Shown piece after piece: positions 27,414 to 45,067 of a stretch of 64,000 nt of DNA (its first letter is position 1; the number at the start of each line of letters is the position of its first letter). Under the pieces are notes generated by a model that was given only the letters and a program-made list of their open reading frames with translations, made no database searches and was not told where the DNA came from. Origin of the DNA: Poritiphilus flavus (lineage in GTDB: Bacteria > Bacteroidota > Bacteroidia > Flavobacteriales > Flavobacteriaceae); the NCBI RefSeq assembly GCF_009901585.1, contig NZ_WXYO01000002.1:156769-220768 (forward strand), given 5' to 3'. The translations under genes were made by a program, and so were the position numbers.

Positions 27414-28298
27414 ATGAATAAAATACAGAGTGGTAATTATTTAGCCTCATCCAGTGTAAAACTTTCAGAAACAGATACTTATGAAGATTTTGGTCGATCC
27501 GAAAAGGAGTTGAAAACCGAGTTGGAAGAGGTACGTGTAAAACTCGGGAAATTTCAGGATACACTATATGCACATGGGAAATACGCCGTGTTGATATGCA
27601 TTCAGGGAATGGATACAGCAGGAAAAGACAGCCTGATCCGGGAGGTTTTCAAGGATTTTAACGCCAGGGGAGTGGTAGTACACAGTTTTAAGGTTCCTAC
27701 GGAGCTTGAACTAAAGCACGATTATATCTGGAGACATTATATCGCATTACCGGCTAAAGGAAAATTTGGGGTTTTTAACCGGACGCATTATGAAAATGTA
27801 CTGGTGACCCGCGTTCACCCTGAGTATATCCTGAGTGAAGATATCCCTGGGATACATCGTGTGGAAGACATAAATCACGAATTCTGGGAAAAACGCTTTG
27901 AACAGATCAACAATTTTGAAAGGCATATCGCCGATAACGGTACGCTGGTGTTTAAGTTTTTTCTACATCTTTCAAAAGAAGAACAGCGGCAACGCCTGCT
28001 TCGCAGATTACGCCTAAAGGAGAAGCATTGGAAGTTCTCACCTGGCGATCTAAAAGAAAGAAAATTGTGGGACAAGTATCAAAAATGTTATGAAGAGGCT
28101 ATTCGGAAGACTTCCAAGCCGCATGCCCCCTGGTATGTTATCCCGGCAGATAGTAAAAGGGCTGCAAGATTGATCGTTGCTTCGATTTTGCTGCAGGAAT
28201 TAAAAAAATATAAAGATATAAAGGAGCCGGAATTAGAAGATGAGGTAAAAGCCAATTTAGACCTATACAAGGCTGCTTTGGAAAGTGAAAAAGAATGA
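27414..28298 (+). CDS. Polyphosphate kinase 2 family protein
   Basis: I start at MNKIQSGNYL (27414); a Met 18 nt earlier is possible. The ~294 residues show the PPK2 Walker A GMDTAGKDSLIREVF and the conserved GVVVHSFKVPTELELKHDYIWR. NRTHYENVLVTRVHPEYIL and a lid with RRLRLKEKHWKF are also present. PPK2 enzymes phosphorylate nucleoside mono- or diphosphates using polyphosphate. Subclass I-III cannot be fixed from this alone. Its stop overlaps the start of the M28 peptidase gene. Confidence 0.9.
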   Translation: MNKIQSGNYLASSSVKLSETDTYEDFGRSEKELKTELEEVRVKLGKFQDTLYAHGKYAVLICIQGMDTAGKDSLIREVFKDFNARGVVVHSFKVPTELELKHDYIWRHYIALPAKGKFGVFNRTHYENVLVTRVHPEYILSEDIPGIHRVEDINHEFWEKRFEQINNFERHIADNGTLVFKFFLHLSKEEQRQRLLRRLRLKEKHWKFSPGDLKERKLWDKYQKCYEEAIRKTSKPHAPWYVIPADSKRAARLIVASILLQELKKYKDIKEPELEDEVKANLDLYKAALESEKE

Positions 28299-29692
28299 AA
28301 AAGATATTAGTGATTTTTTTCCTGAGCACTGCGGTGCTATTTGCTCAGACAGAAGATGAAAAAGCCATCAGGTCTTTTTACGATGCGGCCCTTACTCAGG
28401 GAAAAGCCTATGATTGGCTAAATCATTTATCCAACCAGATCGGCGGGCGACTTTCAGGTTCTGTCCAGGCGGAACAGGCTGTTAGGTATACCCGCATACA
28501 GTTAGATTCACTGGGTTTGGACCGTGTATGGCTACAATCCGTAATGGTACCGAAATGGGTTAGGGGCACCCCTGAATTCGCTTATATAGAAACCAGGCCG
28601 GGGATTACCAGTAACGTTCCTATCACAGCACTTGGAGGCTCTGTATCTACCCCAGTTGGCGGTATTAAAGCCAAGGTAATAGAAGTACAGGGCATAGAGG
28701 ATCTGGCTGTCAAGGGAAGAGATCAGATCGAAGGCAAGATCGTATTTTACAATCGCCCAATGGATCCTACGCTGATCAGTACCTTCCAATCCTATTCAGG
28801 TTGTGTGGACCAGCGCTACTCTGGGGCCGCAGAGGCGGCAAAATTTGGTGCTGTGGGTGTTATTGTCCGATCGATGAATCTGCGGCTGGATGATTATCCG
28901 CACACTGGTTCCATGAGCTATGGAGAAACCCCGGTTAACGAGCGAATCCCTGCGGCGGCCATAAGTACCAATGGTGCGGAACTGCTGAGTACCACCCTGA
29001 AGTTAAATCCCGAGATAAACTTTTATTTTAAGCAAAACTGCAAGCAGTTAGATGATGTAGAGTCGTTCAATGTCGTCGGCGAGATCCGTGGCAGTACCTA
29101 TCCGGGTGAGATCATTCTTGTAGGCGGGCATTTGGATTCCTGGGACCTTGGAGATGGCTCACACGACGATGGAGCAGGTTGTGTGCAAAGTATGGAGGTG
29201 CTAAGGTTGTTTAAGGTTACTGGGTATAAGCCGAAAAGAACCATAAGGGTTGTGCTCTTTATGAATGAGGAAAATGGCCTAAGGGGTGGGAATGCCTATG
29301 CTGATGCGGCCAAACGTAAAAGGGAGCAACACGTTTTTGCGCTGGAAAGCGATGCCGGAGGTTTTACCCCACGTGGTTTTTCATTTGATTGTGATCAGGC
29401 CAATTTTCAGCAGGTACAATCCTGGAAACCCCTTTTTGAACCTTATTTGATCCACCAGTTTATCCAGGGCGGTAGCGGAGCGGATATCGGACCTTTAAAA
29501 ACGGATGAGCTGGTCCTGGCTGGATTACGGCCGGACTCCCAGCGGTATTTTGATCATCACCATGCGGAGAACGATACCTTTGAGCATGTAAACAAGCGCG
29601 AATTGGAGTTAGGTGCAGCAACCATGACCAGCCTGGTATACCTTTTTGATAAGTACGGTACGGTTAAACCTGAAAAGATCAAGGGGAGATAG
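28295..29692 (+). CDS. M28 family metallopeptidase, secreted
   Basis: This 465-residue protein has a signal peptide ending at AVLFAQ and a PA-like insert (about 100-230). The M28 metal site reads GGHLDSWDLGDGSHDDGAGC (His, Asp), MNEENGLRGG (catalytic and ligand Glu), ALESDAGG (Asp), and YFDHHHAENDTFEHV (His). It is a zinc amino- or carboxypeptidase acting in the periplasm or on the surface. The start overlaps ppk2 by 4 nt. The stop runs directly into the 29.7 kb repeat region. Confidence 0.9.
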   Translation: MKKILVIFFLSTAVLFAQTEDEKAIRSFYDAALTQGKAYDWLNHLSNQIGGRLSGSVQAEQAVRYTRIQLDSLGLDRVWLQSVMVPKWVRGTPEFAYIETRPGITSNVPITALGGSVSTPVGGIKAKVIEVQGIEDLAVKGRDQIEGKIVFYNRPMDPTLISTFQSYSGCVDQRYSGAAEAAKFGAVGVIVRSMNLRLDDYPHTGSMSYGETPVNERIPAAAISTNGAELLSTTLKLNPEINFYFKQNCKQLDDVESFNVVGEIRGSTYPGEIILVGGHLDSWDLGDGSHDDGAGCVQSMEVLRLFKVTGYKPKRTIRVVLFMNEENGLRGGNAYADAAKRKREQHVFALESDAGGFTPRGFSFDCDQANFQQVQSWKPLFEPYLIHQFIQGGSGADIGPLKTDELVLAGLRPDSQRYFDHHHAENDTFEHVNKRELELGAATMTSLVYLFDKYGTVKPEKIKGR

Positions 29693-29732
29693 TTTGCAGT
29701 TTGCAGTGAATAGTAAACAGTGAACAGTGAAC
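29691..29732. repeat. Heptad word array AGTnnnC
   Basis: Six consecutive 7-nt words fit AGTnnnC/T, for example AGTTTGC and AGTGAAC. The first word overlaps the peptidase stop codon. The same heptads recur at 46558-46620. Confidence 0.8.
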
Positions 29733-29743
29733 AGTTTGCTATC

Positions 29744-29800
29744 TAATGGTCTAATCGTCTAATCCGTCCAAACGTCCAATTATCCAGCCATCGAACTCTC
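29744..29800. repeat. Short octad word array
   Basis: Seven words such as TAATGGTC and TAATCGTC are spaced 8 nt apart (one is 9). This is a smaller version of the array at 30053-30277. Confidence 0.75.
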
Positions 29801-29840
29801 TTAATCTAATTAGCCACATTTCCAAATGAATACTTGGTCT

Positions 29841-29905
29841 CTCCGCTTTGAAAATGCAGTGCCTAGGATTAACTTGAGTTTGGGGTGGGGTTGGAAGCCC
29901 CGTGA
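29841..29905. repeat. Dispersed hairpin module, copy 1
   Basis: About 65 nt are highly similar to 46491-46556: TGCAGTG, GGATTAA and TTGGGGTGGGG are shared in order. The module ends in a hairpin formed by GGGGTTGGAAGCCCC. Confidence 0.8.
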
Positions 29906-29932
29906 GAATTGGCGAGCCAATTTTCAGTATGC

Positions 29933-29992
29933 AGTTAGCAGTCCTCCTTCGCAAAGGCTATCGAGGATGAGATCGGTGAACAGTAAACAGTG
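29933..29992. repeat. Dispersed TCCTCC module, copy 1
   Basis: The core AGTCCTCCTTCGC followed by AAAGGCT and GAGGATGA is shared with 46166-46234 and 46334-46386. TCCTC/GAGGA arms can form a stem, and heptads AGTnnnC flank it. Confidence 0.8.
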
Positions 29993-30052
29993 TTCTTATT
30001 AAAAAACATTTAACTGGCATGAACATCACAACGTACACGAACCTGATCCATC

Positions 30053-30277
30053 CAACCGTCTAACCATCTAGCAATCCACCCATCCAACCGTCCAAGAATC
30101 CAACTATCTAACCGTCTAACCACTCAGCCATCCACCAATCTAATTGTCTAACAGTCCAACAGTCTAGCCATCTAACCATCTAACCGTCCAACCATCTAAT
30201 CGTCTAGCCATCCAACCATCCAACCGTCTAGCCATCCAACCATCCAACCCTCTAATCCATCCAACCTCCCAACAGTC
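30053..30277. repeat. Octad word array (28 units)
   Basis: 28 consecutive words follow YARCCRTC-like spelling (TAACCATC, CAACCGTC, TAGCCATC). 27 are exactly 8 nt and one is 9 nt. The words vary in sequence but never lose phase. An 8-nt step excludes a conserved reading frame. The array ends 30 nt before the -7 box of the peptidyl-prolyl isomerase gene. Confidence 0.9.
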
Positions 30278-30307
30278 CGAAATCTCGGTTCGTCAAGTAA
30301 ATTTCGC

Positions 30308-30315
30308 TACCTTTG
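30308..30315 (+). promoter_or_regulatory. -7 promoter element of the isomerase gene
   Basis: TACCTTTG, 22 nt before the start codon; no clear -33 TTG. Confidence 0.5.
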
Positions 30316-30337
30316 GCGCTCATTTAAAAAGAGAACT

Positions 30338-31273
30338 ATGCAAGACGGGATTTACGCCAAATTCAATACCTCAAAAGGCGAAATTTTAGTAAAACTTACT
30401 CACGATAAAACGCCGGGAACTGTTGGTAACTTTGTCGGACTGGCAGAAGGCAAATTAGGTAATACCGCCAAACCGGAAGGTACTCCTTATTACAACGGAC
30501 TTACCTTCCATAGGGTAATACCAGATTTTATGATCCAGGGTGGATGTCCTCAAGGAACAGGTACCGGAGATCCGGGATACAAATTTGATGACGAATTTCA
30601 TCAGGAGCTTACCCATTCAGGCCCGGGAGTGCTTTCTATGGCTAACGCCGGACCAGGTACTAACGGAAGCCAGTTCTTTATTACCCATGTGGCTACTCCA
30701 TGGTTAGACAATAAACATACAGTATTCGGGCACGTGGAACACGGTCAGGAAGTAGTCGATGCCATTGCCCAGGGAGACCTGATTGAGTCCCTGGAAATTG
30801 TACGCCAGGGTAATGAGGCAACCAATTGGGACGCTGTTGAAGCTTTCAGGACCTTTGAGAAGGTAAAAGAGGAACGGGAGGCCGAACAGAAAAAAAAGGC
30901 CGAGGCAGAATTGGAAAAACTTTCTGCTGGTTTCGAAAAGACTGAAAGTGGTCTAAGATTTAAGATCCTGAAACAAGGCAATGGTGAAAAGGCCGCCAAA
31001 GGCAATATGGTCTCCGTGCATTACGAAGGTAGCCTTGCTAATGGACAGGTTTTTGATTCTTCCTATAGCCGAAATCAACCTATTGATTTTCAGTTAGGTG
31101 TCGGACAAGTGATTCCGGGTTGGGACGAAGGGATTGGTCTGTTGTCTGTAGGAGATAAGGCCCGATTTGTTATTCCTTCATACCTGGCATATGGTGCGGC
31201 AGGAGCAGGCGGAGGTATTATTCCACCGAACGCCACGCTTATTTTTGAAGTAGAACTGATGGGAGTAAAGTAG
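30338..31273 (+). CDS. Peptidyl-prolyl isomerase: cyclophilin fused to FKBP
   Basis: This 311-residue cytoplasmic protein (no signal peptide) joins two unrelated isomerase folds. Residues about 1-165 are a cyclophilin ([45 protein letters not shown]). A charged helix with [16 protein letters not shown] links to an FKBP domain (about 200-311: [50 protein letters not shown]). Both active sites look intact. It stands alone between the octad array and a 600-nt region with two microproteins. Confidence 0.94.
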
Positions 31274-31313
31274 GCTTATTTTGCCTGGCTTAGCAGCCAT
31301 TCGATATAACGGA

Positions 31314-31400
31314 TTACTTTTTGCTATTCCTTAAGGAAGGGATCAGTAGCAGCAGGTTTATGGCGATAATGCCCAGAACAATTCCAAGGAAAAGCGACAT
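31314..31400 (-). CDS. Single-TM microprotein, 28 residues
   Basis: The ATG at 31400 opens a 28-codon frame. Residues 3-21 form one hydrophobic helix containing INLLLLI, and the tail is short and basic (SLRNSKK). F4, I7, N15, L18, L19 and S22 match, without gaps, the microprotein at 31503-31592 and the 60-aa protein at 14858-15040. It has no Shine-Dalgarno, which is normal here; the upstream AAAATT is A-rich as usual in this genome. Too short for normal gene callers. Function unknown. Confidence 0.5.
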   Translation of the reverse strand: MSLFLGIVLGIIAINLLLLIPSLRNSKK

Positions 31401-31502
31401 AATTTTAAAACTTTGGCTGGAGTCTGAGACTACCAGGCGGGTTCTGTTCTAATAACAACTCGAACCTTACAAACCCTACCCAAAGAACCTGAATTTCTTA
31501 GA

Positions 31503-31592
31503 TCAGGATTTATTGGTCTTTTTTCCGCTCAAAAACAACAATAGGATATTTACAAATAGCAGTAAGAAAAGAATGACCAAAAAAGTAATCAT
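31503..31592 (-). CDS. Single-TM microprotein, 29 residues
   Basis: The ATG at 31592 opens a 29-codon frame on the same strand as the previous one, 102 nt upstream of it. Residues 2-21 form a hydrophobic helix with VNILLLF, and the tail is basic (SGKKTNKS). It shares F4, I7, N15, L18, L19 and S22 with its neighbour, and the MxTF start with the 60-aa protein at 14858-15040. I see no exact promoter box. Function unknown. Confidence 0.5.
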   Translation of the reverse strand: MITFLVILFLLLFVNILLLFLSGKKTNKS

Positions 31593-31860
31593 AGCTGTGG
31601 TTGTTAAGCCGGGGAATTTGTCGAATGTTTAACCTTTAGACGGGAAAGTTCTAAATGGTTGCGCCAAAGTTAAACAAAATTTCAGCTGGTTTTATAATAA
31701 AATTCTTACACATTTTTTTAGAGAATGAAGACTGTTAATTCAGGCTGTGTAAGATTCAAAACTTGTCGAGAAACTTTTGCTAATGTTTAGTCCTCAACGG
31801 TTTTCGGGAAGGCAGGGAAACAAACAAGTTGAAAATAGATTGCTCCAGGCAAGTCCTAAA
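31593..31860. other. Intergenic stretch without recognised feature
   Basis: An AT-rich stretch between the microprotein start and the peroxiredoxin terminator. I find no convincing frame, repeat or promoter in it. At its other side, 31277-31310 on the minus strand reads QKVIRYIEWLLSQAK then a stop, which resembles a decayed C-terminal helix of an enzyme, but this is too short to call. Confidence 0.4.
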
Positions 31861-31886
31861 AAAAGCCTCCCGAAAAGGAGGCTTTT
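31861..31886. terminator. Terminator of the peroxiredoxin gene
   Basis: A 10-bp perfect stem AAAAGCCTCC/GGAGGCTTTT with loop CGAAAA; A-runs and T-runs on both sides make it bidirectional. Confidence 0.85.
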
Positions 31887-31892
31887 ACTTTT

Positions 31893-32531
31893 CTAGACCG
31901 TAGGATCCGGTGTCAAGCGGAGATAGGGTTTGATCTCTTCAACTCCTTTACTGAAAATTTCTTTTGCCTCATCAGTTGGAATAGAAGGGCTAACCACTAC
32001 ATCCTGCCCGTGTTCCCAATTTGCCGGTGTGGCCACTTTGTGATAGGCCGTAAGTTGCAATGAATCGATCACCCTCAACAGTTCGTGGAAATTACGTCCT
32101 GTAGATGCCGGATATGTAATGATTAACTTCACTGTCTTATCCGGTGCAATAATATACACGGACCGGACCGTAAGCGTATCATCGGCGTTAGGGTGGATCA
32201 TGTCGTAAAGATCGGATACCTTGCGATCTTCATCTGCTATTATGGGAAAGTTTACCGTGGTGTGCTGTGTTTCATTGATGTCCTTAATCCACTCATTGTG
32301 GGATTCTTTACCATCCACACTTAGCGCCACCATTTTCACATTGCGCTTGTCAAATTCCGCTTTGAATTTTGCCGCGGTTCCCAATTCTGTAGTACAGACC
32401 GGGGTAAAGTCCGCAGGATGTGAAAACAGTATTCCCCATCCGTCTCCAAGATATTCGTAGAAGTTAAATTGTCCTTCTGAACTGTCTGCTGTAAAGTCGG
32501 GGGCCATGTCGCCTAATCTAATTGTTGCCAT
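31893..32531 (-). CDS. 1-Cys peroxiredoxin (Prx6-like)
   Basis: This 212-residue protein has DGWGILFSHPADFTPVCTTELG, the Prx6-type active site; the peroxidatic Cys is the only cysteine in the protein. The GRNFHELLRVIDSLQL helix and the C-terminal extension with PANWEHGQDVVV are typical of Prx6. It reduces peroxides in the cytoplasm and needs an outside thiol for recycling. Nearby thioredoxin-like and DinB/YfiT-type thiol genes on both strands fit redox work. It ends at an intrinsic terminator. Confidence 0.94.
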   Translation of the reverse strand: MATIRLGDMAPDFTADSSEGQFNFYEYLGDGWGILFSHPADFTPVCTTELGTAAKFKAEFDKRNVKMVALSVDGKESHNEWIKDINETQHTTVNFPIIADEDRKVSDLYDMIHPNADDTLTVRSVYIIAPDKTVKLIITYPASTGRNFHELLRVIDSLQLTAYHKVATPANWEHGQDVVVSPSIPTDEAKEIFSKGVEEIKPYLRLTPDPTV

Positions 32532-32711
32532 TTTATTTGCTTTAAGGTTGTATTATCAAATACCGTAAAATTAGGCGGAATACTGGGGAAATTACACCTG
32601 GGTCTGGTTAAAAATGTATTAAAGTTTTAGAAATGAAGCACATTTCAAATTCGGCGATTAATTCAGACATAGGTATCCCAATATTTCTAAATCTTGCACT
32701 ACTTTTATAAC

Positions 32712-33266
32712 ATGACAGAGAAAGAACTACAAGAACTTCGATATCCCATCGGATATTTTAGTCGCCCTGATATTATAACCGATGAGATCCTGGCTGAATG
32801 GATCGCTCAACTGGAGTCTTATCCGGACAGATTACAGTCCTTGGTCAGTGCACTTTCGGAGGAGCAATTAGCCTGTCCGTATAGGCCGGATGGCTGGACA
32901 GTGCGTCAGGTAATACATCATGTGGCAGACAGCCACCACAATAGCTATGTACGCTTTAAATGGGGCCTTACCGAAGACCGCCCGACGATCAAAGCCTACG
33001 AGGAGAAGCATTGGGCTGAACTCTTTGATACCAAAACAGGGCCCATAGCATTGTCTTTGGCTCACCTAAGGGCGGTACATGCTAAACTGGTCTTTCTTTT
33101 GAAAGGCCTTAGCAGGGAACAACTCAGGCGGACATTCATTCACCCTGACGATGGCAGCGAAACTTCCCTTGAAGAGAATATTGGGAGATATGTGTGGCAT
33201 GGAAATCATCACTTTGCCCATATCAGGAACCTGCTGGAAAGGAAAGGATGGCTCAACGAACCCTAG
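32712..33266 (+). CDS. YfiT-type DinB-like metal-dependent transferase
   Basis: I use the ATG at 32712, because MTEKELQELRYPIGYF is the usual YfiT opening. The ~184 residues form a DinB four-helix bundle with metal-binding histidines in VIHHVADSHHNSYVRFKW and in WHGNHHFAHI. Family members transfer bacillithiol or related thiols, or hydrolyse small substrates. This one lies among peroxiredoxin and thioredoxin-like genes, which supports a thiol role. Its stop overlaps the cupin gene on the other strand by 4 nt. Confidence 0.85.
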   Translation: MTEKELQELRYPIGYFSRPDIITDEILAEWIAQLESYPDRLQSLVSALSEEQLACPYRPDGWTVRQVIHHVADSHHNSYVRFKWGLTEDRPTIKAYEEKHWAELFDTKTGPIALSLAHLRAVHAKLVFLLKGLSREQLRRTFIHPDDGSETSLEENIGRYVWHGNHHFAHIRNLLERKGWLNEP

Positions 33267-33583
33267 GGTTTTTCGCCTCCTTCCGGGCCGTAGAAAAACA
33301 CCCAGGTTACAAAGTCATCACTAAAGTTTTCAAATCGGTGGACTACCCCTGCCGGAACGAATAGAAAATCACCTGGAGCAAAAGCAGTCCTTTCGGTGTC
33401 CATTAAAAACTCCCCAGTTCCTGAAATTACAACGTAAATTTCGTCCCGGGTATGGGGTTGCTGCAGATCAACCTTCTCTGGTTTATATACCTCAACGTAA
33501 AGGGAACCATGTTTGAAGATCTCCTGGAACAATTTACCGCTGTCTGCGAGTCTTGACAGCGCTTCTGCTTTACTAACTTTCAT
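33263..33583 (-). CDS. Cupin-domain protein
   Basis: I use the ATG at 33583, 1 nt after the stop of the thioredoxin-like gene upstream; an ATG at 33616 would overlap that gene by 32 nt. The ~106 residues are one conserved cupin barrel: HTRDEIYVVISGTGEFLMD (motif 1) and GDFLFVPAGVVHRFENFSDD (motif 2), with metal ligands His, Glu and His. The short single domain gives no substrate. The pair with the thioredoxin-like gene is on one transcript. Confidence 0.82.
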   Translation of the reverse strand: MKVSKAEALSRLADSGKLFQEIFKHGSLYVEVYKPEKVDLQQPHTRDEIYVVISGTGEFLMDTERTAFAPGDFLFVPAGVVHRFENFSDDFVTWVFFYGPEGGEKP

Positions 33584-33584
33584 A

Positions 33585-34145
33585 TCAGCTTTCCCGCCAC
33601 TTAATGTTACAGCCAATACTGGGTTTTTGCTCCTGGCTAATGTCCTGACCGCTCAAAAGCGCGTCCAGGGCATTTCTCAGATCTGAACCACTTACCGGGA
33701 TACCGTTTCCTGGCCTGGAGTCGTCTAGCTGTCCGCGATATACCAGCCTGTGTTGAGTATCGAACAGGTAAAAGTCGGGTGTGCAGGCGGCAGCATAGGC
33801 TCTGGCCACTTCCTGGGTTTCATCGAACAAATATGGGAAAGTGTAACCCTCTTCTTTAGCGGTCTCCTTCATTAAGTGTGGTGCATCCTGCGGATAATTA
33901 ACAATGTCGTTGCTGGAAATGGCTATAAAACCAATACCTTTCTCCTGGTAGTCTTTGGCAAGGGACACCACACCGGCATTCACATGTTTGACAAACGGGC
34001 AGTGATTGCAAATAAACATTACAACCGTACCTTGTTCCCCACTGAGCTCGGAAAGGCCAAGGGATTTATCCGATACGGTATCCAGGAGTTCAAAATTGGG
34101 AGCCTGAGTCCCTAAGGGTATCATATTACTGGGTGTTCTGGCCAT
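33585..34145 (-). CDS. Thioredoxin-like (AhpC/TSA, TlpA-type) protein
   Basis: This 186-residue protein has the thioredoxin fold of the redoxin type. It has the active-site-like CNHCPFVKHV (CxxC), a helix with ISSNDIVNYPQDAPHLM, the cis-Pro region ACTPDFYLFD and the late YRGQLDDSRPGNG. There is no signal peptide, so it acts in the cytoplasm. It is first in a two-gene unit with the cupin. A redox role with peroxiredoxin nearby is inferred from context. Confidence 0.88.
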   Translation of the reverse strand: MARTPSNMIPLGTQAPNFELLDTVSDKSLGLSELSGEQGTVVMFICNHCPFVKHVNAGVVSLAKDYQEKGIGFIAISSNDIVNYPQDAPHLMKETAKEEGYTFPYLFDETQEVARAYAAACTPDFYLFDTQHRLVYRGQLDDSRPGNGIPVSGSDLRNALDALLSGQDISQEQKPSIGCNIKWRES

Positions 34146-34257
34146 TTTTTCTACTTCATTTGGTTATCCTAAAGTTAACATGAAAATTGGTACGACCCTA
34201 TATTTTAACGCAAAGCGCTAGGGTGACTGTTATCCTGCGAAATCAGATCTACTGCAC

Positions 34258-36783
34258 TTACATAATCGGACCAAAGAATATGGCATTCATCAGTAATTTG
34301 TTCGTGCCGTACCAGAAGGCCCTGAAGTTGGTGTTGTCTGTAAACAAAATAACCCTGCCTTTGCCCGATCGCACTGCTTTGAATGGTACGCTACCTTTAA
34401 TCAATTCCAGGTTTTCCTCAGATATGTAACCGCTTAAAAGCGGGTTTGAGGTATACTGAATGGGATTGTTATAGCTCTGCTTGTCCGCTTCAAGATAGAT
34501 GTTGGTGTTTCGGAAGAGCGGGAGTTTATCGTTCTTGTAACCAAAATTGATAGGGTGAGACCTGTCCAGCTTTGCCTCGAAAATGGCCCCTCCTGTAACC
34601 TGAGCTCCTTTGAAGTCAGCTTTTTCTTCAAAGGAAACATCCTTTGCCACAATACTGTCCTTTTTAAACTCAGGTTTCATCAATTCATTGTTTTTAAACC
34701 ATTTGGCAGCGCTTCGGTACCCGATAAGCGTACCACCAGACTTAACCCATGGCTTTAGCTTTTTGGCTACTGCACTGTCCAGGTTTAGGCTTCCCCAGGA
34801 ACCCGGGACAATAATATCGGTATACTTGCTGATATCCGCCGAATCGAAATAGCCCACGTCTAACTTGGTGATCTTCATGTCGTAGCGTGTATCGAACAAA
34901 TGCCACATCTCTCCGGCATCATAAGAACGTATTCCCTCGCCCACCAATACGGCTACTTTTTGCTTCTTTATCGGATCGAATTGATTGCTACCCAGATCTA
35001 TCCCCTGTGTCAGGCCCGTAGACACGCCATTTATTTGCAGATTGCATTCTGCCGCCACACCGCTGAGGAATTTGTGTAATTCGTCAGCCTGGAGCGCCTG
35101 ACCCTGCACTGGGATCATTATGGTACCATAGTCATATCTTGTACCATTCAAACTAAATGGCGACTTTGCCACCTTGGCTCTTAAACCCTTATTAAGGATC
35201 TTGTTGAGAGCCTTAGGGCTGTAGTATTCGTGCCATTCAAACAAATAGGCATACTGGCTTTTTCCGTTTACCGACCCCTCTAAAGGCTTGAGTTCAGTCA
35301 CTTCAGGTCCTGCATTTGAAAGGGAAGTAGTCTCGGTATAATCCAGGTTAAATGCCAACGGAAAGGTCCAGGCAGACACATCGTAAAACAAGCTGTCAGT
35401 AAAGGAGGTCCTTTTTTCGAAGATAGCTTTGATCAGTCTGTGGTTTTTCTGGTTCATAGGCACTACATAGCTCTTTTCTTTGACGAAGGAATTGCCGTTG
35501 AGCGATGCATCATTGGCCAACTCGTTGAATTTAATCTGATGCCTTTTAAGGATTTCGGCCAGGTGCCAGGCTTTGGCCCCGTCTTTACTATCTCCGAATA
35601 TCACGGCTTTGGTTCTGCTGCGCTGTGCCTCATCCCTCGCGGATTTGAAAAAGTCTCGTTGATAGGACAATATCTTTGTACGCATGTTCTTCGCCGCTTC
35701 TATGGTGGATAAGGCCGTGGTAAACTGATTGCGAATCGTAAATGGAAAAGTAAGTATTCCGTTTTCGCTTTCTTGTATATGACCCCTTGAACTCCCCTGT
35801 TCGAACAAAATTCCTATACCACCGTTAACATCCGGAAAAGTGGAGCCCTTACCGTAGTAATAATCGTCAAAATTCTCTTCTGTGTAATATAGTGAACCCA
35901 ATTCGTCCAGGGCTTTGGCGTGATATGTGCCGATCTCTGCCGTTAGCTCCTGGTTGATTTTAGGGGTGAGCGGGTGAACCCTTGAAGGCACTCCGGGCTG
36001 AAAGAAGAAGGTGGAATTGGTTCCCATCTCGTGGTGGTCCGTCAGTATGTTTGGCAGCCACTTATGAAAAGTCTTAATTCTTACCCGGCTTTCAGGAAGT
36101 TGTACCGGAAGCCAGTCCCTGTTCATATCAAACCAGTAGTGGTTTGTGCGCCCACCTGGCCATACTTCGTGATATTCACGCTCGTTCTTGTCCGGATTCA
36201 GTTGAATGCTCTTGTGAACATTCGCCCAATAGGCGAAACGCTGTAGGCCATCCGGGTTGAAGGAAGGATCGAGTAGTATGATCATTTTGTCCAAAAGGGA
36301 TTCTATTTCCGCACCCTGAGCGGCTGCCAGATAATAGGCATAAGCCAATGTGGCATTAGATCCGCTGGGTTCATTGCCGTGAATGGAAAAACCCTGGTAC
36401 ACCACTATGGGCATATTTTCCACATCTAAGGTGGAACCTTCCGTTTCTGTAAGCGTAAGGTGTTCTTTGCGAATTTGCTCTAGATTGTTGAGGTTCTCCG
36501 GAGTGCTGATGGTAAGCAGCAATAATGGTCTGCCTTCAAAAGTAGTACCACGTGTTTCTATTTGAATGCGATCACTTGCCGCGGCAAGAGTTTGCATGTA
36601 AAACCAAAGCTTATCATGGGTTACATGCCATTCGCCTACCTCGTGGCCAATAACATCCGCTGGTTTTGGGATTTTTTCGTTATACGTTACGTCCTGGGGG
36701 AGGTAATAGTTAAGATCTGGTACGTTTTGTGCGATCCCGGTTTGCATTATGGCGTAGAATACCAACACACACAATTGTTTCAT
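34258..36783 (-). CDS. M14 family zinc carboxypeptidase, large secreted form
   Basis: This 841-residue protein has a signal peptide (MKQLCVLVFYAIMQTGIAQ) and an N-terminal M14 domain of about 360 residues. The zinc site shows HGNEPSG (HxxE) with the later His in TDHHEMG, and the base Glu in FEQGSSRG. The C-terminal ~450 residues are beta-rich with SYDAGEMWHLFDTRYDMKIT and a GATase-like LEADK region; they look like the accessory part of large Bacteroidota M14 enzymes. It degrades peptides outside the cytoplasm. It forms a single-gene unit. Confidence 0.9.
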   Translation of the reverse strand: MKQLCVLVFYAIMQTGIAQNVPDLNYYLPQDVTYNEKIPKPADVIGHEVGEWHVTHDKLWFYMQTLAAASDRIQIETRGTTFEGRPLLLLTISTPENLNNLEQIRKEHLTLTETEGSTLDVENMPIVVYQGFSIHGNEPSGSNATLAYAYYLAAAQGAEIESLLDKMIILLDPSFNPDGLQRFAYWANVHKSIQLNPDKNEREYHEVWPGGRTNHYWFDMNRDWLPVQLPESRVRIKTFHKWLPNILTDHHEMGTNSTFFFQPGVPSRVHPLTPKINQELTAEIGTYHAKALDELGSLYYTEENFDDYYYGKGSTFPDVNGGIGILFEQGSSRGHIQESENGILTFPFTIRNQFTTALSTIEAAKNMRTKILSYQRDFFKSARDEAQRSRTKAVIFGDSKDGAKAWHLAEILKRHQIKFNELANDASLNGNSFVKEKSYVVPMNQKNHRLIKAIFEKRTSFTDSLFYDVSAWTFPLAFNLDYTETTSLSNAGPEVTELKPLEGSVNGKSQYAYLFEWHEYYSPKALNKILNKGLRAKVAKSPFSLNGTRYDYGTIMIPVQGQALQADELHKFLSGVAAECNLQINGVSTGLTQGIDLGSNQFDPIKKQKVAVLVGEGIRSYDAGEMWHLFDTRYDMKITKLDVGYFDSADISKYTDIIVPGSWGSLNLDSAVAKKLKPWVKSGGTLIGYRSAAKWFKNNELMKPEFKKDSIVAKDVSFEEKADFKGAQVTGGAIFEAKLDRSHPINFGYKNDKLPLFRNTNIYLEADKQSYNNPIQYTSNPLLSGYISEENLELIKGSVPFKAVRSGKGRVILFTDNTNFRAFWYGTNKLLMNAIFFGPIM

Positions 36784-36905
36784 AAGCCTTGTTTTAGATT
36801 TTGAATTAGTCTGCCGTTAAAGGTAACTAATAGCAAGGCATAGGACAAGTTCTTGCGGTTTAAAACCTGAAGTCAAGTAGGTGTTAAAAATACCGCATAA
36901 AAAAA

Positions 36906-36921
36906 CCCCGGAACTCCGGGG
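36906..36921 (-). terminator. Terminator of the DUF3276 gene
   Basis: A CCCCGG/CCGGGG stem with a short AACT loop, followed on the minus strand by seven T. Confidence 0.85.
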
Positions 36922-36944
36922 CTATTTACTTTTATATATGACTT

Positions 36945-37316
36945 TTAGATATCGTCAAAACTGACATCCGTAAAGCTTTCGGAAGACTTTACTTCTCCAT
37001 TACTGCTGGTATCTTCTTTTTTAAAGTCTTTTTGATGCCTTTCGGAAATCACTTCCAATCCTTTTTCATCAATGATGTAATCCATCATTTCCTCCAGGGT
37101 TTCACGGAACGATTGAAAATCCTCTTTGTAGAGGTAGATTTTGTGTTTCTTGTAGTGAAAAGAACCGTCATCATGGGTGAATTTCTTGCTTTCGGTGATC
37201 GTAAGGTAATAATCCCCTGCTTTTGTACTCCTAACGTCGAAGAAATAAGTTCTTCTTCCTGCTCTCATCACCTTTGAGAAAATCTCTTCCTGATCTATGG
37301 TATCTTTATCGCTCAT
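36945..37316 (-). CDS. DUF3276 / PUR family nucleic-acid-binding protein
   Basis: This 123-residue protein matches the bacterial PUR (DUF3276) family: a single beta-beta-beta-beta-alpha PUR repeat with FSKVMRAGRRTYFFDVRSTKAGDYYLTITESK. KIYLYKEDFQSFRETLEEMMDYI follows, then an acidic disordered tail. Members bind single-stranded DNA and RNA as dimers. It is a single gene with its own strong terminator. No regulation is visible. Confidence 0.92.
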   Translation of the reverse strand: MSDKDTIDQEEIFSKVMRAGRRTYFFDVRSTKAGDYYLTITESKKFTHDDGSFHYKKHKIYLYKEDFQSFRETLEEMMDYIIDEKGLEVISERHQKDFKKEDTSSNGEVKSSESFTDVSFDDI

Positions 37317-37392
37317 GGCCTTAGTTCTAGTTAGTATATTTTCTTAAATGCCATCAAAAATGTGAAAAAAAAGCTAATTCAGCAACATTTTT

Positions 37393-39147
37393 CTAGTTTT
37401 CTTTCTCCGATAGCTGGTTGATATAAAGGTCTTTGTAGTATCCTTCCTGCGCCACTAATTGGTTGTGTGTTCCCTGCTGCAGAATTTTACCTCCCTCTAA
37501 TACGATGATCTTATCCGCATTTTTTGCAGAGGATACCCTATGGCTTACGATAAGGGTGGTCCTGTTCTCGGAAGCCCTTTTGAGGTTGTTGAGGATCTCC
37601 TCTTCTGTTTCTGTGTCCACCGCAGAAAGACAATCATCAAAAAGATAGATCTGAGGGTCTTTTAGCAATGCCCTTGCAATGGAGACCCTTTGTTTCTGTC
37701 CTCCACTAAGGGTTATACCCCGTTCACCCAGTATGGTGTCATAACCATTTGTGAACCCTACGATATTGTCATGTACCACGGACATTCGGGCCACTTCTTC
37801 GATCTCTTCCTCTGTGGCCTCCTCTTTTCCGAATTTAATGTTATTTCGAATGGTATCTGAAAACAGAAATGCATCCTGAGGCACTGCACCTATCATGGAT
37901 CTCAGGCTTTCCAGGTTGATCTCCTTGATAGGCACATCGTCAATAAGGATAGTTCCGGAAGAGGTGTCATACAGACGGGCGATCAGCTCCAGGATCGTAG
38001 ATTTTCCTGAACCGGTTTTTCCCAGAATGGCAACAGTTTCTCCTTGTTCAACCGTAAAGGAAATACCATGAAGGGCCGTAATCTCCGTATCTTCATAAGT
38101 AAAAGTTACGTCCCTGAACTCAATTTTGCCGGAAATCTGAGTTTTCTGGGCCACTTCACTTTTGATGGACGGCTCTTCTTTAAGAAATTCGTTTATCCGC
38201 TTCTGTGAGGCCTCCGCCCTTTGTACTATGGAGGTAAGCCAACCCACGATGGCTACCGGCCAGGTAAGCATATTGACATAAAGAATAAACTCGGCAATAG
38301 TACCCACAGATTCGATCTGACCATCCAGATACTGCTTTCCACCTACATAGATCACAAAAATATTGCTGATACCTATCAGTAGTATCATCAAAGGAAAGAA
38401 CCATGCATTGACCTTGGCAAGGTCCATGCTTTTGTCCTTACCTTCCAGAGCCAGTGCTCTAACCTCAGAATTTATCTGTGGTTCAAGGGTATAAGCCTTA
38501 ATGACTGAAACCCCAGAAAAGGATTCCTGCGCAAAGGTAGAAAGGGTAGACAGGTATTCCTGCACCTTTGTACTCCTTTTGTGTATGATACGGCTGATCT
38601 GATAGATCAAAATAGACAGTACAGGAAGGGGTAATAAGGAATAAAAAGCGATGGTTGGCGCTTTTATAAACATCAGCGGGATCAGACAAACAAAAAGGGT
38701 CAATGTCTGCATACCGTACATTATCGCGGGCCCTGCATACAGCCTGACCTGGCTCACATCTTCGCTTATTCTGTTCATCAGGTCTCCCGTACGGTTCTTC
38801 TTGTAGAAATTGAGGCTAAGTAACTGATAATGGTCAAAAACCTCGTTCTTTAGATCATATTCTATATATCGAGACACGTTTATGATCGTTTGCCGCATTA
38901 GAAAGGTAAAGAAACCGGAAAGCAAGGCCGCACCTACGATGATCAGTATGTATTCTAAAAGTAGATCCCTGGCGGCAGACTCTTCGAGTTGATTACTGAC
39001 ATAATTCTCAACGACTTCAATAGAATTCTTTACGTATGAAGGCATTACCAGCTGAAATACCCTGGCGATGATAGTAATAATGATCCCCAGAAGTAGTTTT
39101 AACCAGTATTTTTTGAAGTATTTGTTGAGATGTCTGAGTTCCTTCAT
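37393..39147 (-). CDS. ABC exporter half-transporter (MsbA/MdlA-like), catalytic Glu replaced
   Basis: This 584-residue protein has six TM helices (residues about 15-310) and one nucleotide-binding domain: Walker A GKTGSGKST, Q-loop PQDAFLFSDTIRNNI, signature LSGGQKQRV, Walker B IYLFDDCLSAVD. The catalytic Glu after Walker B is Asp (DD for DE), as in MdlA-type halves of heterodimeric exporters. No partner half is adjacent. It may pair with a protein coded elsewhere or work with reduced ATPase activity. The substrate is unknown. Confidence 0.9.
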   Translation of the reverse strand: MKELRHLNKYFKKYWLKLLLGIIITIIARVFQLVMPSYVKNSIEVVENYVSNQLEESAARDLLLEYILIIVGAALLSGFFTFLMRQTIINVSRYIEYDLKNEVFDHYQLLSLNFYKKNRTGDLMNRISEDVSQVRLYAGPAIMYGMQTLTLFVCLIPLMFIKAPTIAFYSLLPLPVLSILIYQISRIIHKRSTKVQEYLSTLSTFAQESFSGVSVIKAYTLEPQINSEVRALALEGKDKSMDLAKVNAWFFPLMILLIGISNIFVIYVGGKQYLDGQIESVGTIAEFILYVNMLTWPVAIVGWLTSIVQRAEASQKRINEFLKEEPSIKSEVAQKTQISGKIEFRDVTFTYEDTEITALHGISFTVEQGETVAILGKTGSGKSTILELIARLYDTSSGTILIDDVPIKEINLESLRSMIGAVPQDAFLFSDTIRNNIKFGKEEATEEEIEEVARMSVVHDNIVGFTNGYDTILGERGITLSGGQKQRVSIARALLKDPQIYLFDDCLSAVDTETEEEILNNLKRASENRTTLIVSHRVSSAKNADKIIVLEGGKILQQGTHNQLVAQEGYYKDLYINQLSEKEN

Positions 39148-39325
39148 TCGGTTGGCAGGCTAAGGGTGTGGTTTTATTATAACGGCCCAAAGATAGCGGA
39201 TTGGTAGATATCTAAATGTTATAAAACTTATAAGATAAAGTGCGAACCAATACGGCCTGTTTTCAAAATAGATTGCTATTTTTGCTCCGTTGCTGTTTAT
39301 CAATCAAAAATAAGGTTCTTTATAC

Positions 39326-40273
39326 ATGCTAACAAGACGGCATATTAGGGTAAAAGTAATGCAATGCATATACGCCCTGACCCAATCCAAAGGTGATTCT
39401 CTTGAAAAACAGGAGAAGTTCTTGAAAGCGAGCATTGAAAACACCTACTCCTTATATCTTTTGAACCTGGCATTGTTTCGGGAACTCTTCCTGCTAGCGG
39501 AAAAGCACGTCTTGCACGCATCCAAAAAATACGTAGCAAATACCTCGGATCAATATCCCGATCAACAAAAATTTGTAAACAATCGATTGCTGTCTCAGAT
39601 CGCTAACAACGAGCGCCTGCAAAAAGAGTTGGAAAAGCGAAAATTAAAGCACTGGTATCTTCATGAGGAGTATGTAAAGATTATCTATAAGGAGGTTATT
39701 GCGAGTGAGTTTTACCGGCGCTATATGGAAAAGGAGGGAAGCGCTTATGAAGAAGACCGGGCTTTGCTCATTGAATTGTTTCGGGAGGTGATCGCCCCTA
39801 ACGAAAAGATCTATGAATATTTTGAAGATGACAAGCTCACCTGGGTAGACGATATTCCGCTAGTGAATACTTTCATTCTAAAACGCCTAAAAAAGGCGGG
39901 CCCTGGTCAACCAGAGGCCTTCTTTCTTCCGAAATTACTCAAGGATATTGACGATCTTGATTTTGCAAAAAAACTACTTTCAAAAACCCTGTTGAAAGAT
40001 GCGGAGCTCATGCAGGAAATCGAGGGCAAAACGCCGAATTGGGATAAGGACAGGATCGCGGATATCGACGCCATATTGTTGAAAATGGCCATATGTGAAT
40101 TGCTCAATTTCTCATCCATTCCTGAAAGAGTCACTATTAATGAATATCTAGAGATTGCAAAAGAGTATTCTACTCCCAAAAGCAGCATCTTTATTAACGG
40201 GATTTTAGACAAATTGGTGAAGGAATATAAAACCAAAGGAAAACTTAAAAAAAGCGGACGCGGATTGTTGTAA
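39326..40273 (+). CDS. nusB: Transcription antitermination factor NusB, long Bacteroidota form
   Basis: This 315-residue protein is twice the length of E. coli NusB, as is usual in Bacteroidota. It starts MLTRRHIRVKVMQCIYALTQ, and the NusB domain sits in the C-terminal part (IDAILLKMAICELLNFSSIPERVTINEYLEIAKEYSTPKSSIFINGILDKL). NusB with NusE starts antitermination of rRNA operons. A box TATTTTTG at 39277-39284 is a likely -7 element. The next gene's promoter lies inside its last codons. Confidence 0.93.
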   Translation: MLTRRHIRVKVMQCIYALTQSKGDSLEKQEKFLKASIENTYSLYLLNLALFRELFLLAEKHVLHASKKYVANTSDQYPDQQKFVNNRLLSQIANNERLQKELEKRKLKHWYLHEEYVKIIYKEVIASEFYRRYMEKEGSAYEEDRALLIELFREVIAPNEKIYEYFEDDKLTWVDDIPLVNTFILKRLKKAGPGQPEAFFLPKLLKDIDDLDFAKKLLSKTLLKDAELMQEIEGKTPNWDKDRIADIDAILLKMAICELLNFSSIPERVTINEYLEIAKEYSTPKSSIFINGILDKLVKEYKTKGKLKKSGRGLL

Positions 40274-40293
40274 ACAAATATTCCTTAATTTTG
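40265..40293 (+). promoter_or_regulatory. Promoter of the DUF1573-yajC pair
   Basis: TTG (40265-40267), 18-nt spacer, TAATTTTG (40286-40293). The -33 element overlaps the end of nusB. Confidence 0.65.
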
Positions 40294-40423
40294 CTCGGAA
40301 ACACAGGCCTGAAAGATAAAAATTTCAACCTTCTGCCTTTCTCAGGAAACGGACATAAAAGTGGCTAAAGCGGCCGCCAATCTTCTGAAAAGGGATAAAT
40401 TAAGTTTAAATAAAAACAAAAAA

Positions 40424-40909
40424 ATGAAAAGGACCGTAATCACTTTGAGTTTAGTTTCTGTACTAGCATTTATGTCTTGTAAGGAAAACGCTTCCAGCAA
40501 GATCAATGCTTCAAATGTGGAGGTAGCGGCGCAGCGCGATGAAGCAGCCAAAAACCTTCCTGTAATGACCTTCGATAAATCGGAACACGATTTCGGCACA
40601 ATTGAGCAGGGAACTCCGCAAGAGACTACTTTCAGTTTTACAAATACCGGTAATGCACCTCTGATTATTACAAATGCGACAAGTTCATGTGGCTGTACAG
40701 TTCCTCAATATCCTAAGAATACGCCAATTGCTCCCGGAGAAACCGGAGAACTACTGGTGAAATTCAATGGTTCCGGTCAGAATCAGGTAACCAAAACCGT
40801 AACCGTATCGGCCAATACAGAAAAAGGCTCAGAACTATTGCGCATCAAAGCTTTCGTAACTCCAAAGAATGCAGCCTCTACTGCTGCTGTTGGACCCGTA
40901 AAGCAGTAA
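40424..40909 (+). CDS. DUF1573 family lipoprotein
   Basis: I start at the ATG at 40424 (MKRTVITLSLVSVLAFMSC, lipoprotein signal with LxSC lipobox), although the frame is open from 40361. The mature ~145 residues are an immunoglobulin-like DUF1573 domain: DKSEHDFGTIEQGTPQETTF, TNTGNAPLIITNATSSCGCTVP (conserved CGC pair), and GELLVKFNGSGQ. Members are lipid-anchored periplasmic or surface proteins of unknown role. yajC follows within 20 nt, so they probably form one transcript. Confidence 0.88.
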   Translation: MKRTVITLSLVSVLAFMSCKENASSKINASNVEVAAQRDEAAKNLPVMTFDKSEHDFGTIEQGTPQETTFSFTNTGNAPLIITNATSSCGCTVPQYPKNTPIAPGETGELLVKFNGSGQNQVTKTVTVSANTEKGSELLRIKAFVTPKNAASTAAVGPVKQ

Positions 40910-40926
40910 TTTTATAAAGCACATAA

Positions 40927-41214
40927 ATGGGTGATATAGGATCATTACTTCCAATGCTGCTGATATTTGCGGTAGCGTACTTCTTTATGATACGACCGCA
41001 GATCAAGCGTCAGAAAGACGAGAAAAAATTTGCACAGGCATTGAAGAAAGGGGATAAGATTATTACAAAAAGTGGATTACACGGAAAGGTGGTGGATCTG
41101 AATGACAAGGATTTTTCCTGCATCATTGAAACCATGGCCGGAAGGCTTAAGTTCGACCGTTCTGCTATTTCCATGGAAATGAGCAAAAAGCTCAATGCAC
41201 CTAAGGAAAAATAA
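40927..41214 (+). CDS. yajC: Preprotein translocase accessory subunit YajC
   Basis: This 95-residue protein has one N-terminal TM helix (LLPMLLIFAVAYFFMIRPQIKRQK) followed by a small soluble domain (LKKGDKIITKSGLHGKVVDLNDKDF), the YajC pattern. It associates with SecDF at the Sec translocon. It is downstream of a DUF1573 gene and ends at a strong terminator. Confidence 0.95.
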   Translation: MGDIGSLLPMLLIFAVAYFFMIRPQIKRQKDEKKFAQALKKGDKIITKSGLHGKVVDLNDKDFSCIIETMAGRLKFDRSAISMEMSKKLNAPKEK

Positions 41215-41235
41215 CTCCTTCCCTCAAAAAATAAA

Positions 41236-41263
41236 ACACTGGCATATTGCCGGTGTTTTTTTT
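41236..41263 (+). terminator. Terminator after yajC
   Basis: A 9-bp stem ACACTGGCA/TGCCGGTGT with a 3-nt loop (one G-T pair), followed by seven T. Confidence 0.9.
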
Positions 41264-41287
41264 ACCCTCATGTTCGCCAAAGCCGCT

Positions 41288-41314
41288 TATTTAGTATCTT
41301 CATGCAACTAAATA
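41288..41314. promoter_or_regulatory. Inverted repeat before the Gfo/Idh gene
   Basis: Arms TATTTAG and CTAAATA are separated by 13 nt, directly ahead of the start codon. It may be an operator; no regulator is known. Confidence 0.3.
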
Positions 41315-41323
41315 TCATTTGTC

Positions 41324-42670: not shown

Positions 42671-42676
42671 TTCAGA

Positions 42677-43273
42677 TCAGCTACTTCTGTATTTGTCATT
42701 AAGTGAAATACCCTGGGCTATCATAGGAAGGATCTTTTCCAGTCTGGATTGTTTGGTCTTTTCCTGTTTGGCCTCACTGATGTATTCACAAAACTCCCGC
42801 TGTTTGTAGGGCGTGAGTTTACCGAACCTCACCTTAAGTTCGTTGTCTTTGTCCAGAGCGTTAGATAGCGCTTCCGGTACGACGGTTTCCTTTTTGGGTC
42901 CCGGGCTAAGTGCAATACCCTTCCGTTGGTTGTCCAGAGCCTCCTGCATATAGGCCAAAACTCCGGCTTTATCAATCTCGTTCTCCGACAGGAACTTCCA
43001 ATGCCTCATGGCTTTGGTTTTACCTTCCTGTGCATTTTCCAGGACACCTTTAGGGTCACTTAGAAATACGCCGTTAAAGAACCACACCCCAAAATGACTC
43101 TTGAAGGCACAGATTCCTAATACATTTTTGCCATCGTAGGTATAAACAGGGAAATTCCATTTATAGCTCTCCTCCAGTTCTGTTTTTAGGGCCAGTTCTC
43201 TCAATACCGCGATTCCCTTTTTATATTGGTGTTCCCTGGCGTAAAAGGCTTCGATCTTTTCAGTTGCGCTCAT
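42677..43273 (-). CDS. YdeI/OmpD-associated (DUF1801-type) protein
   Basis: This 198-residue protein starts just after and overlaps pepT by 14 nt. The first ~130 residues are a DUF1801/YdhG-like domain (ESYKWNFPVYTYDGKNVLGICAFKSHFGVWFFNG). The rest is the YdeI tail (LTPYKQREFCEYISEAKQEKTKQSRLEKIL). Family function is not established. It converges with the Gfo/Idh gene, 6 nt apart. Confidence 0.85.
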   Translation of the reverse strand: MSATEKIEAFYAREHQYKKGIAVLRELALKTELEESYKWNFPVYTYDGKNVLGICAFKSHFGVWFFNGVFLSDPKGVLENAQEGKTKAMRHWKFLSENEIDKAGVLAYMQEALDNQRKGIALSPGPKKETVVPEALSNALDKDNELKVRFGKLTPYKQREFCEYISEAKQEKTKQSRLEKILPMIAQGISLNDKYRSS

Positions 43274-44507: not shown

Positions 44508-44568
44508 CCTTATAATTTTTGGCCAAAAATACAGTTTAAATATGTATTATTGCGCCTGTGCTTATTAG

Positions 44569-45027
44569 TTGTATGATATCGTGAAAAACACTTTCTATAT
44601 TTCGATTTTACTTGTACTCTTTTGCGGCTATATCTCCCATGCCCAACGTTTTGAAGACTGCACACTAGGCCTCGGGGGAAAGGATGCTCAGACCATAGTG
44701 GAGGTATTCCAATTGAATGAAGAACAACAATCCAAAATGAATGCATGGTCCGCGGAACTTCAGACCCAACAGAAATTGATTGAAGATCAGATCCAGGAAC
44801 TGTTTGACAAGCATCCACAAAGCACTACGGAAGAATTGAATACCCTGGCGGTAAAGTATAAGAAGTTAAAAGACCAGATAGTTACTATCTCAAAATCTTT
44901 TGACCAAAAACTACTGGCAACTTTCAATGAAAGGCAGTATGAAAGATACGTCGCGCTTTGCCGGGCGGCCTATCGCCAACCCATGACTATTCCTCAGAAA
45001 GTAAGAGATTCGGTAAATCCAGAATAA
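44569..45027 (+). CDS. Secreted small helical protein of unknown function
   Basis: The start is either the ATG at 44569 or the GTG at 44581 ([14 protein letters not shown]); the latter gives a cleaner signal peptide ending near ISHAQ. The mature ~125 residues are helical with a Spy/CpxP-like run ([30 protein letters not shown], then [11 protein letters not shown]). Two cysteines lie near the ends. Resemblance to periplasmic spheroplast-protein-Y-like helices is an inference. It precedes pyrD by about 90 nt. Confidence 0.65.
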
Positions 45028-45067
45028 TATCGGGCTTTCCATATATCGAATACCTGCAGCAAAGCGC

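Follow-up and report, generated by a model that had tools for sequence, protein, structure and literature searches.

Arrays of degenerate 6-, 7- and 8-nucleotide words recur at dozens of intergenic loci of the Poritiphilus flavus genome, where they keep a common order and orientation. With moderate confidence, we interpret them as satellite-like composite repeats, oriented and dispersed in intergenic DNA, whose words would form a single recombining pool. The window referred to throughout is the whole stretch of P. flavus DNA that was analysed, 64,000 nucleotides in length.

Results

Phased arrays occupy two intergenic gaps of the window

Within the window, arrays are confined to two gaps between open reading frames, one at 29693-30337, flanked by genes for a peptidase M28 protein and a cyclophilin/FKBP protein, and one at 46154-46843, flanked by genes for a dihydroorotate dehydrogenase and an HMGL-like protein; all features described here lie on the plus strand. 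The first gap opens with a CAGTNNN heptad array (H7, 29691-29735; TRF period 7 at 29691-29707 and 29704-29735) that begins where the upstream gene (ORF 28295-29692) reaches its stop codon. It is followed by a short array of CNRTCYAA-class octads (29742-29800), the composite's linker of about 61 nt, termed LINK (29843-29903, among 28 aligned copies), CAGTNNN heptads 3' of LINK (29925-29942, read from the sequence), a palindromic element termed PAL (29942-29970, a pattern match with none expected by chance), heptads 3' of PAL (29974-29991, also read from the sequence) and the main CNRTCYAA octad array (O8, 30048-30277), which was recognized by TRF, by a lag scan and by BLAST within the same genome. 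The short octad array, which the earlier note had described as strictly stepped from 29744, has a TRF period of 8 (29742-29780) with 6% indels, and its strictness is lost. Across 30048-30266 of the main array, TRF reports a period of 8 with 27.2 copies, 70% matches and 2% indels; at 70% matches the units are not near-identical, unlike those of long perfect or nearly perfect simple sequence repeats. Scores at periods of 24 and 32 exceed that at 8, an early hint of multi-word copying.

The second gap carries two heptad-flanked PAL elements, identified by pattern match and from the sequence (46165-46231, with PAL at 46175-46203; 46340-46385, with a heptad before and heptads after PAL at 46343-46371). 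Beyond these lie an AT-rich octad array termed A8 (46387-46485, words AATTTYAC and TCAAATCA; TRF period 8 and lag scan), a second LINK copy (46493-46553, found by eye; 90% alignment with locus L033), a CAGTNNN heptad array 3' of LINK (46557-46623; TRF period 7 at 46574-46623), an AACACTN heptad array (46641-46675; TRF periods 14 and 7, the latter at 46648-46675) and, after these heptads, an ACTTNN hexad array (46665-46712; TRF period 6, lag 6). The octads from 46394 had been taken for a single array; their 8-nt period holds, but TRF separates two pieces (46387-46435 and 46447-46485) with differing consensus words. Near 46665 the step does shift from 7 to 6 nt, TRF giving period 7 and then 6. 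The best 56-nt identity in the window reaches 0.768 at lag 8, against at most 0.536 in five dinucleotide shuffles, 0.679 at lag 7 against 0.518, and 0.589 at lag 6 against 0.518, values that together with TRF bear out the 8-, 7- and 6-nt phased arrays of the earlier note.

The arrays belong to ordered, oriented islands

The main octad array has 65 BLAST matches within the P. flavus genome, and four consecutive CAGTNNN words have 422, compared with none for the reversed control. Many contiguous 7-nt arrays lie in intergenic DNA, as in bacterial heptamer or STRR-type repeats (STRR being the name for cyanobacterial short tandem repeats of the heptamer kind), the main array itself having an 8-nt step. 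We fetched 38 array regions of this genome, and a de novo scan of these and the window yielded 231 array regions, overlaps kept, with periods of 8 (n=141), 7 (n=75), 6 (n=14) and 9 nt (n=1). At an equal threshold, neither 7- nor 8-nt arrays appeared in seven stretches picked arbitrarily, each some 20 kb long (L051, L052, L196-L200), which indicates that the arrays are concentrated in islands. One such stretch (L052:8998-9198, on G000:C14) shows a 9-nt periodicity that likely codes for an amino-acid repeat. A 128-locus scan gave many 7-nt regions as well, from loci mostly chosen by heptad pattern, and no counts are drawn from it.

Modules usually follow the order A8-LINK-H7-PAL-H7-O8. Read in island orientation, the transitions are H7 to O8 (29), O8 to A8 (26), A8 to LINK (18), LINK to H7 (15), H7 to PAL (14) and PAL to H7 (11), with A8 to O8 (1) and H7 to LINK (2) rare, and, in islands that contain three or more modules, 291 of 313 lie on the majority strand; A8, S6, G7 and V7 were located by hand-made regular expressions, so that module counts are approximate. 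PAL was seen within CAGT heptads in 36 copies across the fetched regions and the window. The 28 LINK copies, of about 61 nt each, have a mean pairwise divergence of 0.237; their number is a lower bound, since the search missed at least the window copy at 46493-46553, and a loose LINK regular expression returned mostly noise. LINK stems are paired in 95.9% of cells of the aligned copies, with weak covariation that 14 of 500 shuffles reach and that a slid version of the stems outscores. Both neighbouring genes could be called for 43 islands, comprising 24 same-direction, 14 convergent and 5 divergent gaps by a simple ORF picker, and some islands start within a few nucleotides of the upstream stop codon.

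Steps around LINK recur in a second genus

Octad DNA was found in 2 of 60 genomes, that of P. flavus and one weak match. Across the phylum, 101 of the 395 genomes contain five consecutive CAGTNNN words, a count in which many arrays are pure repeats and the reversed control is frequent in some genomes (G170, G178). The reversed control, TGACNNN five times over, outnumbers CAGTNNN in G170, G178 and G158, indicating that other heptad families abound in the phylum. Runs of five CAGTNNN words appear in cyanobacteria, Chloroflexi, Planctomycetes, Acidobacteria and others as well (at least 120 stretches). In a lag scan, stretches of G001, G009, G011 and G168 (L181, L184, L185, L189) match at every lag and look like runs of N.

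LINK is present in at least 3 of 299 family genomes when at most three candidates are scored per genome: P. flavus, G187, which represents a second genus of the family, and G589. LINK in G187 again lies between octads and heptads. Lag 8 is best in the 110 nt before LINK for 22 of 28 copies in P. flavus and 7 of 8 in G187, and lag 7 is best in the 70 nt after it for 23 of 28 and 7 of 8 copies, respectively. The words before LINK are AT-rich A8 octads in P. flavus and YNTCACYG-like octads in G187; the phase signal of the earlier note thus extends to a related genome, with 8- and 7-nt steps flanking LINK and octad words of another kind. A triple octad pattern from G187 has 85 matches there and none in P. 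flavus (G000), G289, G450, G451 or G589, and no orthologous arrays were found in G187 and G289. LINK occurs without word arrays in G589 and at one G187 locus. LINK-like hairpins stand in tandem, spaced by about 100 nt and without word arrays, at about 1100-1900 of the G187 locus L281.

A second species of the window's genus was not among the genomes reached, and three Microcystis genomes served as a stand-in, with orthologues of both flanks for five of nine regions and seven comparisons, classified by eye. Whole 7-nt words were gained or lost in four of the seven, and the other three comparisons showed rearranged arrays; among the four gain/loss cases, two also had one changed word and one had different DNA between arrays. 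Against the expectation that words change in close strains while phase holds, word number shifts more than word identity in this material. Microcystis G452 (L256, L258, L260) carries other word arrays of 7- and 8-nt step, such as CCCCACA, CCCCATCT and AGGGTTTT, beside CAGT heptads.

Variation is confined to fixed word positions

Position tables were compiled from units admitted by their neighbours' scores, a unit's own score not being used. The 1321 octads from 35 P. flavus loci have, at positions 1 to 4, C (.74), C/A/T (.54/.28/.15), A/G (.54/.40) and T (.93) and, at positions 5 to 8, C (.95), T/C (.50/.47), A (.93) and A (.79). The 521 heptads from 34 loci read C (.90), A (.87), G (.93) and T (.92), followed by three free, C-poor positions. 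When loci of 12 units or more were scored, the core varied less than the remaining positions at all 33 octad loci and all 20 heptad loci. At 25 of the 33 octad loci the three positions of lowest variability coincide exactly with the core, as do the four of lowest variability at all 20 heptad loci. Variation is therefore confined to fixed word positions. Free positions are two-lettered, the top two letters averaging 91%, and mutual information within the octad is small (0.038 bit for positions 3 and 6; maximum 0.079, for positions 4 and 5). A slight coupling links positions 3 and 6, A going with C and G with T. The position tables rule out uniform drift from one ancestral unit. Since C5 and A7 hardly vary, we also dropped the idea that the purine and pyrimidine positions reflect wobble pairing with a constant partner.

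The words of G187 likewise include two-letter positions. Its YNTCACYG octads (311 units, 20 loci) have C/T (.46/.44) at position 1 and C/T/G (.49/.36/.13) at position 7, and its heptads (GTTYGMR, 181 units; CAGTNNN, 141 units) include a position divided between A and C (.50/.44). This A/C position looks like a segregating site and not the product of a purine/pyrimidine rule. If the words form a population, core positions would be the sites that have become fixed in it and two-letter positions those still segregating.

Words also differ where the surrounding DNA is conserved. Among paralogous loci with flanks at least 85% alike (nine pairs on the left, four on the right; flank divergence 0.084 and 0.046), the adjoining octads are often unrelated yet in phase, with a free-position divergence of 0.15-0.53, compared with 0.476 for random words; one pair (L022) is identical throughout. 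The main array of the window and locus L017 have left flanks that are 99% alike, and the first words differ; window positions 30074-30143 (70 nt) then agree letter for letter with a block inside L017 that stands in another register, beyond which similarity drops to the random level. At L031, two copies have a common left flank and several common end words, with whole words gained between them, as judged by eye. Paralogue pairs with no or one gap first hinted at hypermutation in place beside conserved flanks; this idea was rejected because in-phase alignment of unrelated octads already reaches about 68%, and because the window matches L017 in another register.

These observations bear on the strongest alternative, in which each word would be a putative protein-binding site, selection holding core and spacing while the free positions are saturated by mutation. 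A candidate reader would be a cooperative protein, for example of the ribbon-helix-helix (RHH) kind, covering contiguous 7-bp words. The lower variability of the core at every octad and heptad locus scored is what such selection would produce, and saturated free positions would also leave neighbouring words independent of one another. A precedent exists in passages of PMC9499535, where the parS sites of plasmid pSM19035 are described as 7-bp WATCACW repeats bound by the RHH protein ParB: a degenerate array of contiguous, unspaced short words with fixed core and step, like those seen here, although the likeness is one of resemblance only, parS comprising six sites on a plasmid, each of 7-10 words and bound by a known protein, as opposed to dozens of chromosomal islands. 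Saturated positions, however, should be four-lettered, whereas the free positions are two-lettered and one in G187 is A/C; nor can saturation give the words, often unrelated in place, that lie beside flanks conserved at 93-99%. We regard the binding-site explanation as unlikely.

Octad neighbours are no closer than random words

Sixty chains of at least eight octads (1054 words) give a neighbour identity of 0.678, compared with 0.689 +- 0.004 for within-array shuffles and 0.683 for random words drawn genome-wide, a result unchanged after dropping 11 loci with block copies. The step is kept while words differ, as the earlier note had proposed. Identical adjacent octads are depleted (27 against 52 +- 6 expected), perhaps through loss of like pairs by slippage. 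Between-locus standard deviations are near binomial at positions 3 and 6 (0.089 and 0.094 against 0.084) and above binomial at positions 1, 2 and 8, and an Fst-like value across octad loci is 0.037. Because neighbours are no closer than random words and loci are alike in composition, purely local copy-and-drift fails for these octads.

Copying of longer tracts is evident nonetheless. Three-word runs recur within loci 102 times against 4 expected, and multi-word blocks are duplicated within loci, with 18 of 20 pairs in a greedy block-pair list lying inside one locus. These pairs contain 51 differences in 178 word pairs (by position, 1:6, 2:20, 3:9, 4:0, 5:1, 6:10, 7:1, 8:4), words at segment ends possibly not being homologous; changes strictly interior to duplicates amount to six rows, three with a single changed site, too few to use. 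Runs common to different loci are at chance for two words (771 against 744 +- 59), mildly raised for three (37 against 25.5 +- 5.7) and 8 against 1.1 expected for four.

Heptads behave differently from octads. Heptad neighbours are alike (0.751 against 0.691), and two-word heptad runs common to different loci number 1377 against 803 expected; octad neighbours in G187 are alike too (0.744 against 0.683), opposite to those of P. flavus. Pool behaviour is therefore not general, and the contrast with ordinary tandem repeats drawn in the earlier note applies to the P. flavus octads and not to its heptads or the G187 octads, in which neighbour copying is seen. Copy-and-drift from one unit, which that note had set against its own reading, likewise fails for the P. 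flavus octads in its purely local form and leaves its trace as neighbour copying in the heptads.

Such copying is what local tandem-repeat evolution would predict, strand slippage copying neighbours that then drift; the 7-nt unit is possibly the stretch that contacts DNA polymerase (Mrazek 2007, as cited in passages of PMC4679880 and PMC4692102). The similar neighbours in P. flavus heptads and G187 octads, the block duplications within loci and the gain and loss of whole words in Microcystis all speak for this process. The P. flavus octads, with neighbours no closer than random words and a composition that hardly differs between loci, speak against it, as does the simulation below, in which all-local copying lies far from the observations. 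As the sole process slippage is refuted for these octads, and it remains a contributor; as an account of the arrays overall we rate it slightly less probable than binding sites.

A neutral model with exchange between loci approximates the octads

We simulated neutral evolution of 60 arrays of 18 words, in which in-phase tracts were copied between or within arrays, with two tract lengths, two runs of each, mutation tuned to the observed diversity and no selection. When all or half of the exchange was between loci, Fst ranged from -0.01 to 0.07, neighbours fell within about 0.03 of random, and both nearly fixed and two-letter positions arose. With 90% local copying Fst rose to 0.28-0.32, and with all-local copying to 0.89-0.93, with neighbour identities of 0.96-0.99; the observed values are 0.037 for Fst, 0.678 for neighbours and 0.683 for random words. 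Four-word runs between arrays, of which the simulation count finds 29 in the real data, numbered 17-140 with 16-nt tracts and 255-480 with 60-nt tracts. The observed number fits short tracts only, and the few long runs common to different loci likewise imply that exchanged tracts would have to be short. The deficit of like neighbours was not reproduced. Within this model, then, exchange of tracts between loci can reproduce most octad statistics without selection, and local copying alone cannot.

Homogenizing local copying would make neighbours alike at the free positions, which is not seen, leaving genome-wide exchange or a constraint on each word. The A/C position of G187 and the in-phase changes of words next to conserved flanks lead us to favour exchange. 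Under the satellite-like reading, arrays at different loci would swap short in-phase tracts by gene conversion or template switching, the step would be kept because only in-phase pairing is productive, and the islands would mainly be tolerated spacer DNA filling gaps up to stop codons. We infer these exchange events between loci without a direct sighting of one in closely related strains, and we know of no machinery for exchange of this kind, both of which weigh against it.

The one reverse transcriptase found lies apart from the octads of its contig

The PF00078 (RVT_1) profile finds one reverse transcriptase in the P. flavus genome, at C13:78489, whose best match is the UG19 class of DRT proteins (PADLOC E 2.8e-134). 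A match to RTas1465 follows it (E 7.1e-93; L265:1054-3356), and by sequence similarity the two make a candidate defence pair. The gene is on contig C13, away from the two octad places of that contig. The profile of the Y1 transposase, PF01797, gives one partial match (E 8.7e-7, profile positions 32-88 of 121).

The earlier note had raised an error-prone synthesis process. A reverse transcriptase or telomerase-like enzyme that wrote words from a template, with a fixed step and loose positions, would indeed make independent words with fixed and loose positions, and one UG19-like enzyme is present. That enzyme, the only one found with PF00078, is without a link to the arrays, however, multi-word blocks are plainly copied, and several unrelated word families with different steps coexist in one genome, and we consider templated synthesis very improbable. 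Least probable of all, by a small step, is an RNA signal such as a Rho-utilization site, which the G-poor octad strand with TC every 8 nt just after stop codons, and some islands lying a few nucleotides from them, might suggest: only 15 of the 24 same-direction gaps have octads oriented like the genes, Rfam gives no match at gathering score within window positions 29000-47500, and folding of the window copy of LINK does not exceed that of shuffles (z -0.07).

Discussion

The islands resemble several known repeat systems, each in part. Eukaryotic satellites keep their unit length while unit sequence diverges between lineages, and their arrays exchange; unlike them, the units here are 6-8 nt long and form small dispersed islands in a bacterium. 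REP/BIME-type mosaics combine palindromes and spacers in ordered intergenic mosaics, a trait matched by the recurrence of PAL and LINK. They differ in that the spacers here are tandem word arrays; for the Y1 transposase there is the one partial match.

Bacterial heptamer arrays are closer in step. Passages of PMC4679880 describe intergenic TAACTGA heptamer repeats in Beggiatoaceae, cyanobacteria and five Bacteroidetes, with long arrays and further heptamers sharing gaps in some Bacteroidetes. Like the arrays here, these are contiguous 7-nt intergenic words, and TAACTGA, read on the other strand and in another phase, is CAGTTAT, a member of CAGTNNN. Those passages describe a single word repeated directly, with related heptamers rarely repeated in the main genome studied, whereas the arrays here combine degeneracy at fixed positions, octads and hexads, and an ordered composite with LINK and PAL. 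The GGGAATC and GGGGAYT heptamers of Xanthomonas and Nostoc also form genome-wide, mostly non-coding 7-nt arrays, which vary in length and sequence between close relatives, according to passages of PMC4692102; they are G-rich, quadruplex-forming and of a single word type, and those passages contain no 8-nt arrays or linker.

Our searches of open-licence papers turned up heptamer arrays and nothing on degenerate octads, slot-specific steps or this composite. On our best reading, the arrays are akin to the known bacterial heptamer arrays. A further proposal, which we advance only tentatively, is that each slot passes on its own step, 8 nt ahead of LINK and 7 nt beyond it, which would persist across genera while octad words are replaced and the words within a genome behave as one recombining population.

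Short tandem repeats in bacteria are usually ascribed to local slippage, whereas the octads fit the neutral model only with short in-phase tracts exchanged between loci. Treating words as a population makes the evolution of such arrays measurable, and the common steps around LINK in two genera offer a handle on the origin and upkeep of 7- and 8-nt periods, a question that has stood since the excess of heptamers was first noticed. If the step is indeed inherited with its slot, the arrays would be a bacterial counterpart of satellites that keep their unit length but not their sequence, and what sets the step would be either a machinery of in-phase exchange or a protein moving along DNA in strides of 7 or 8 bp.
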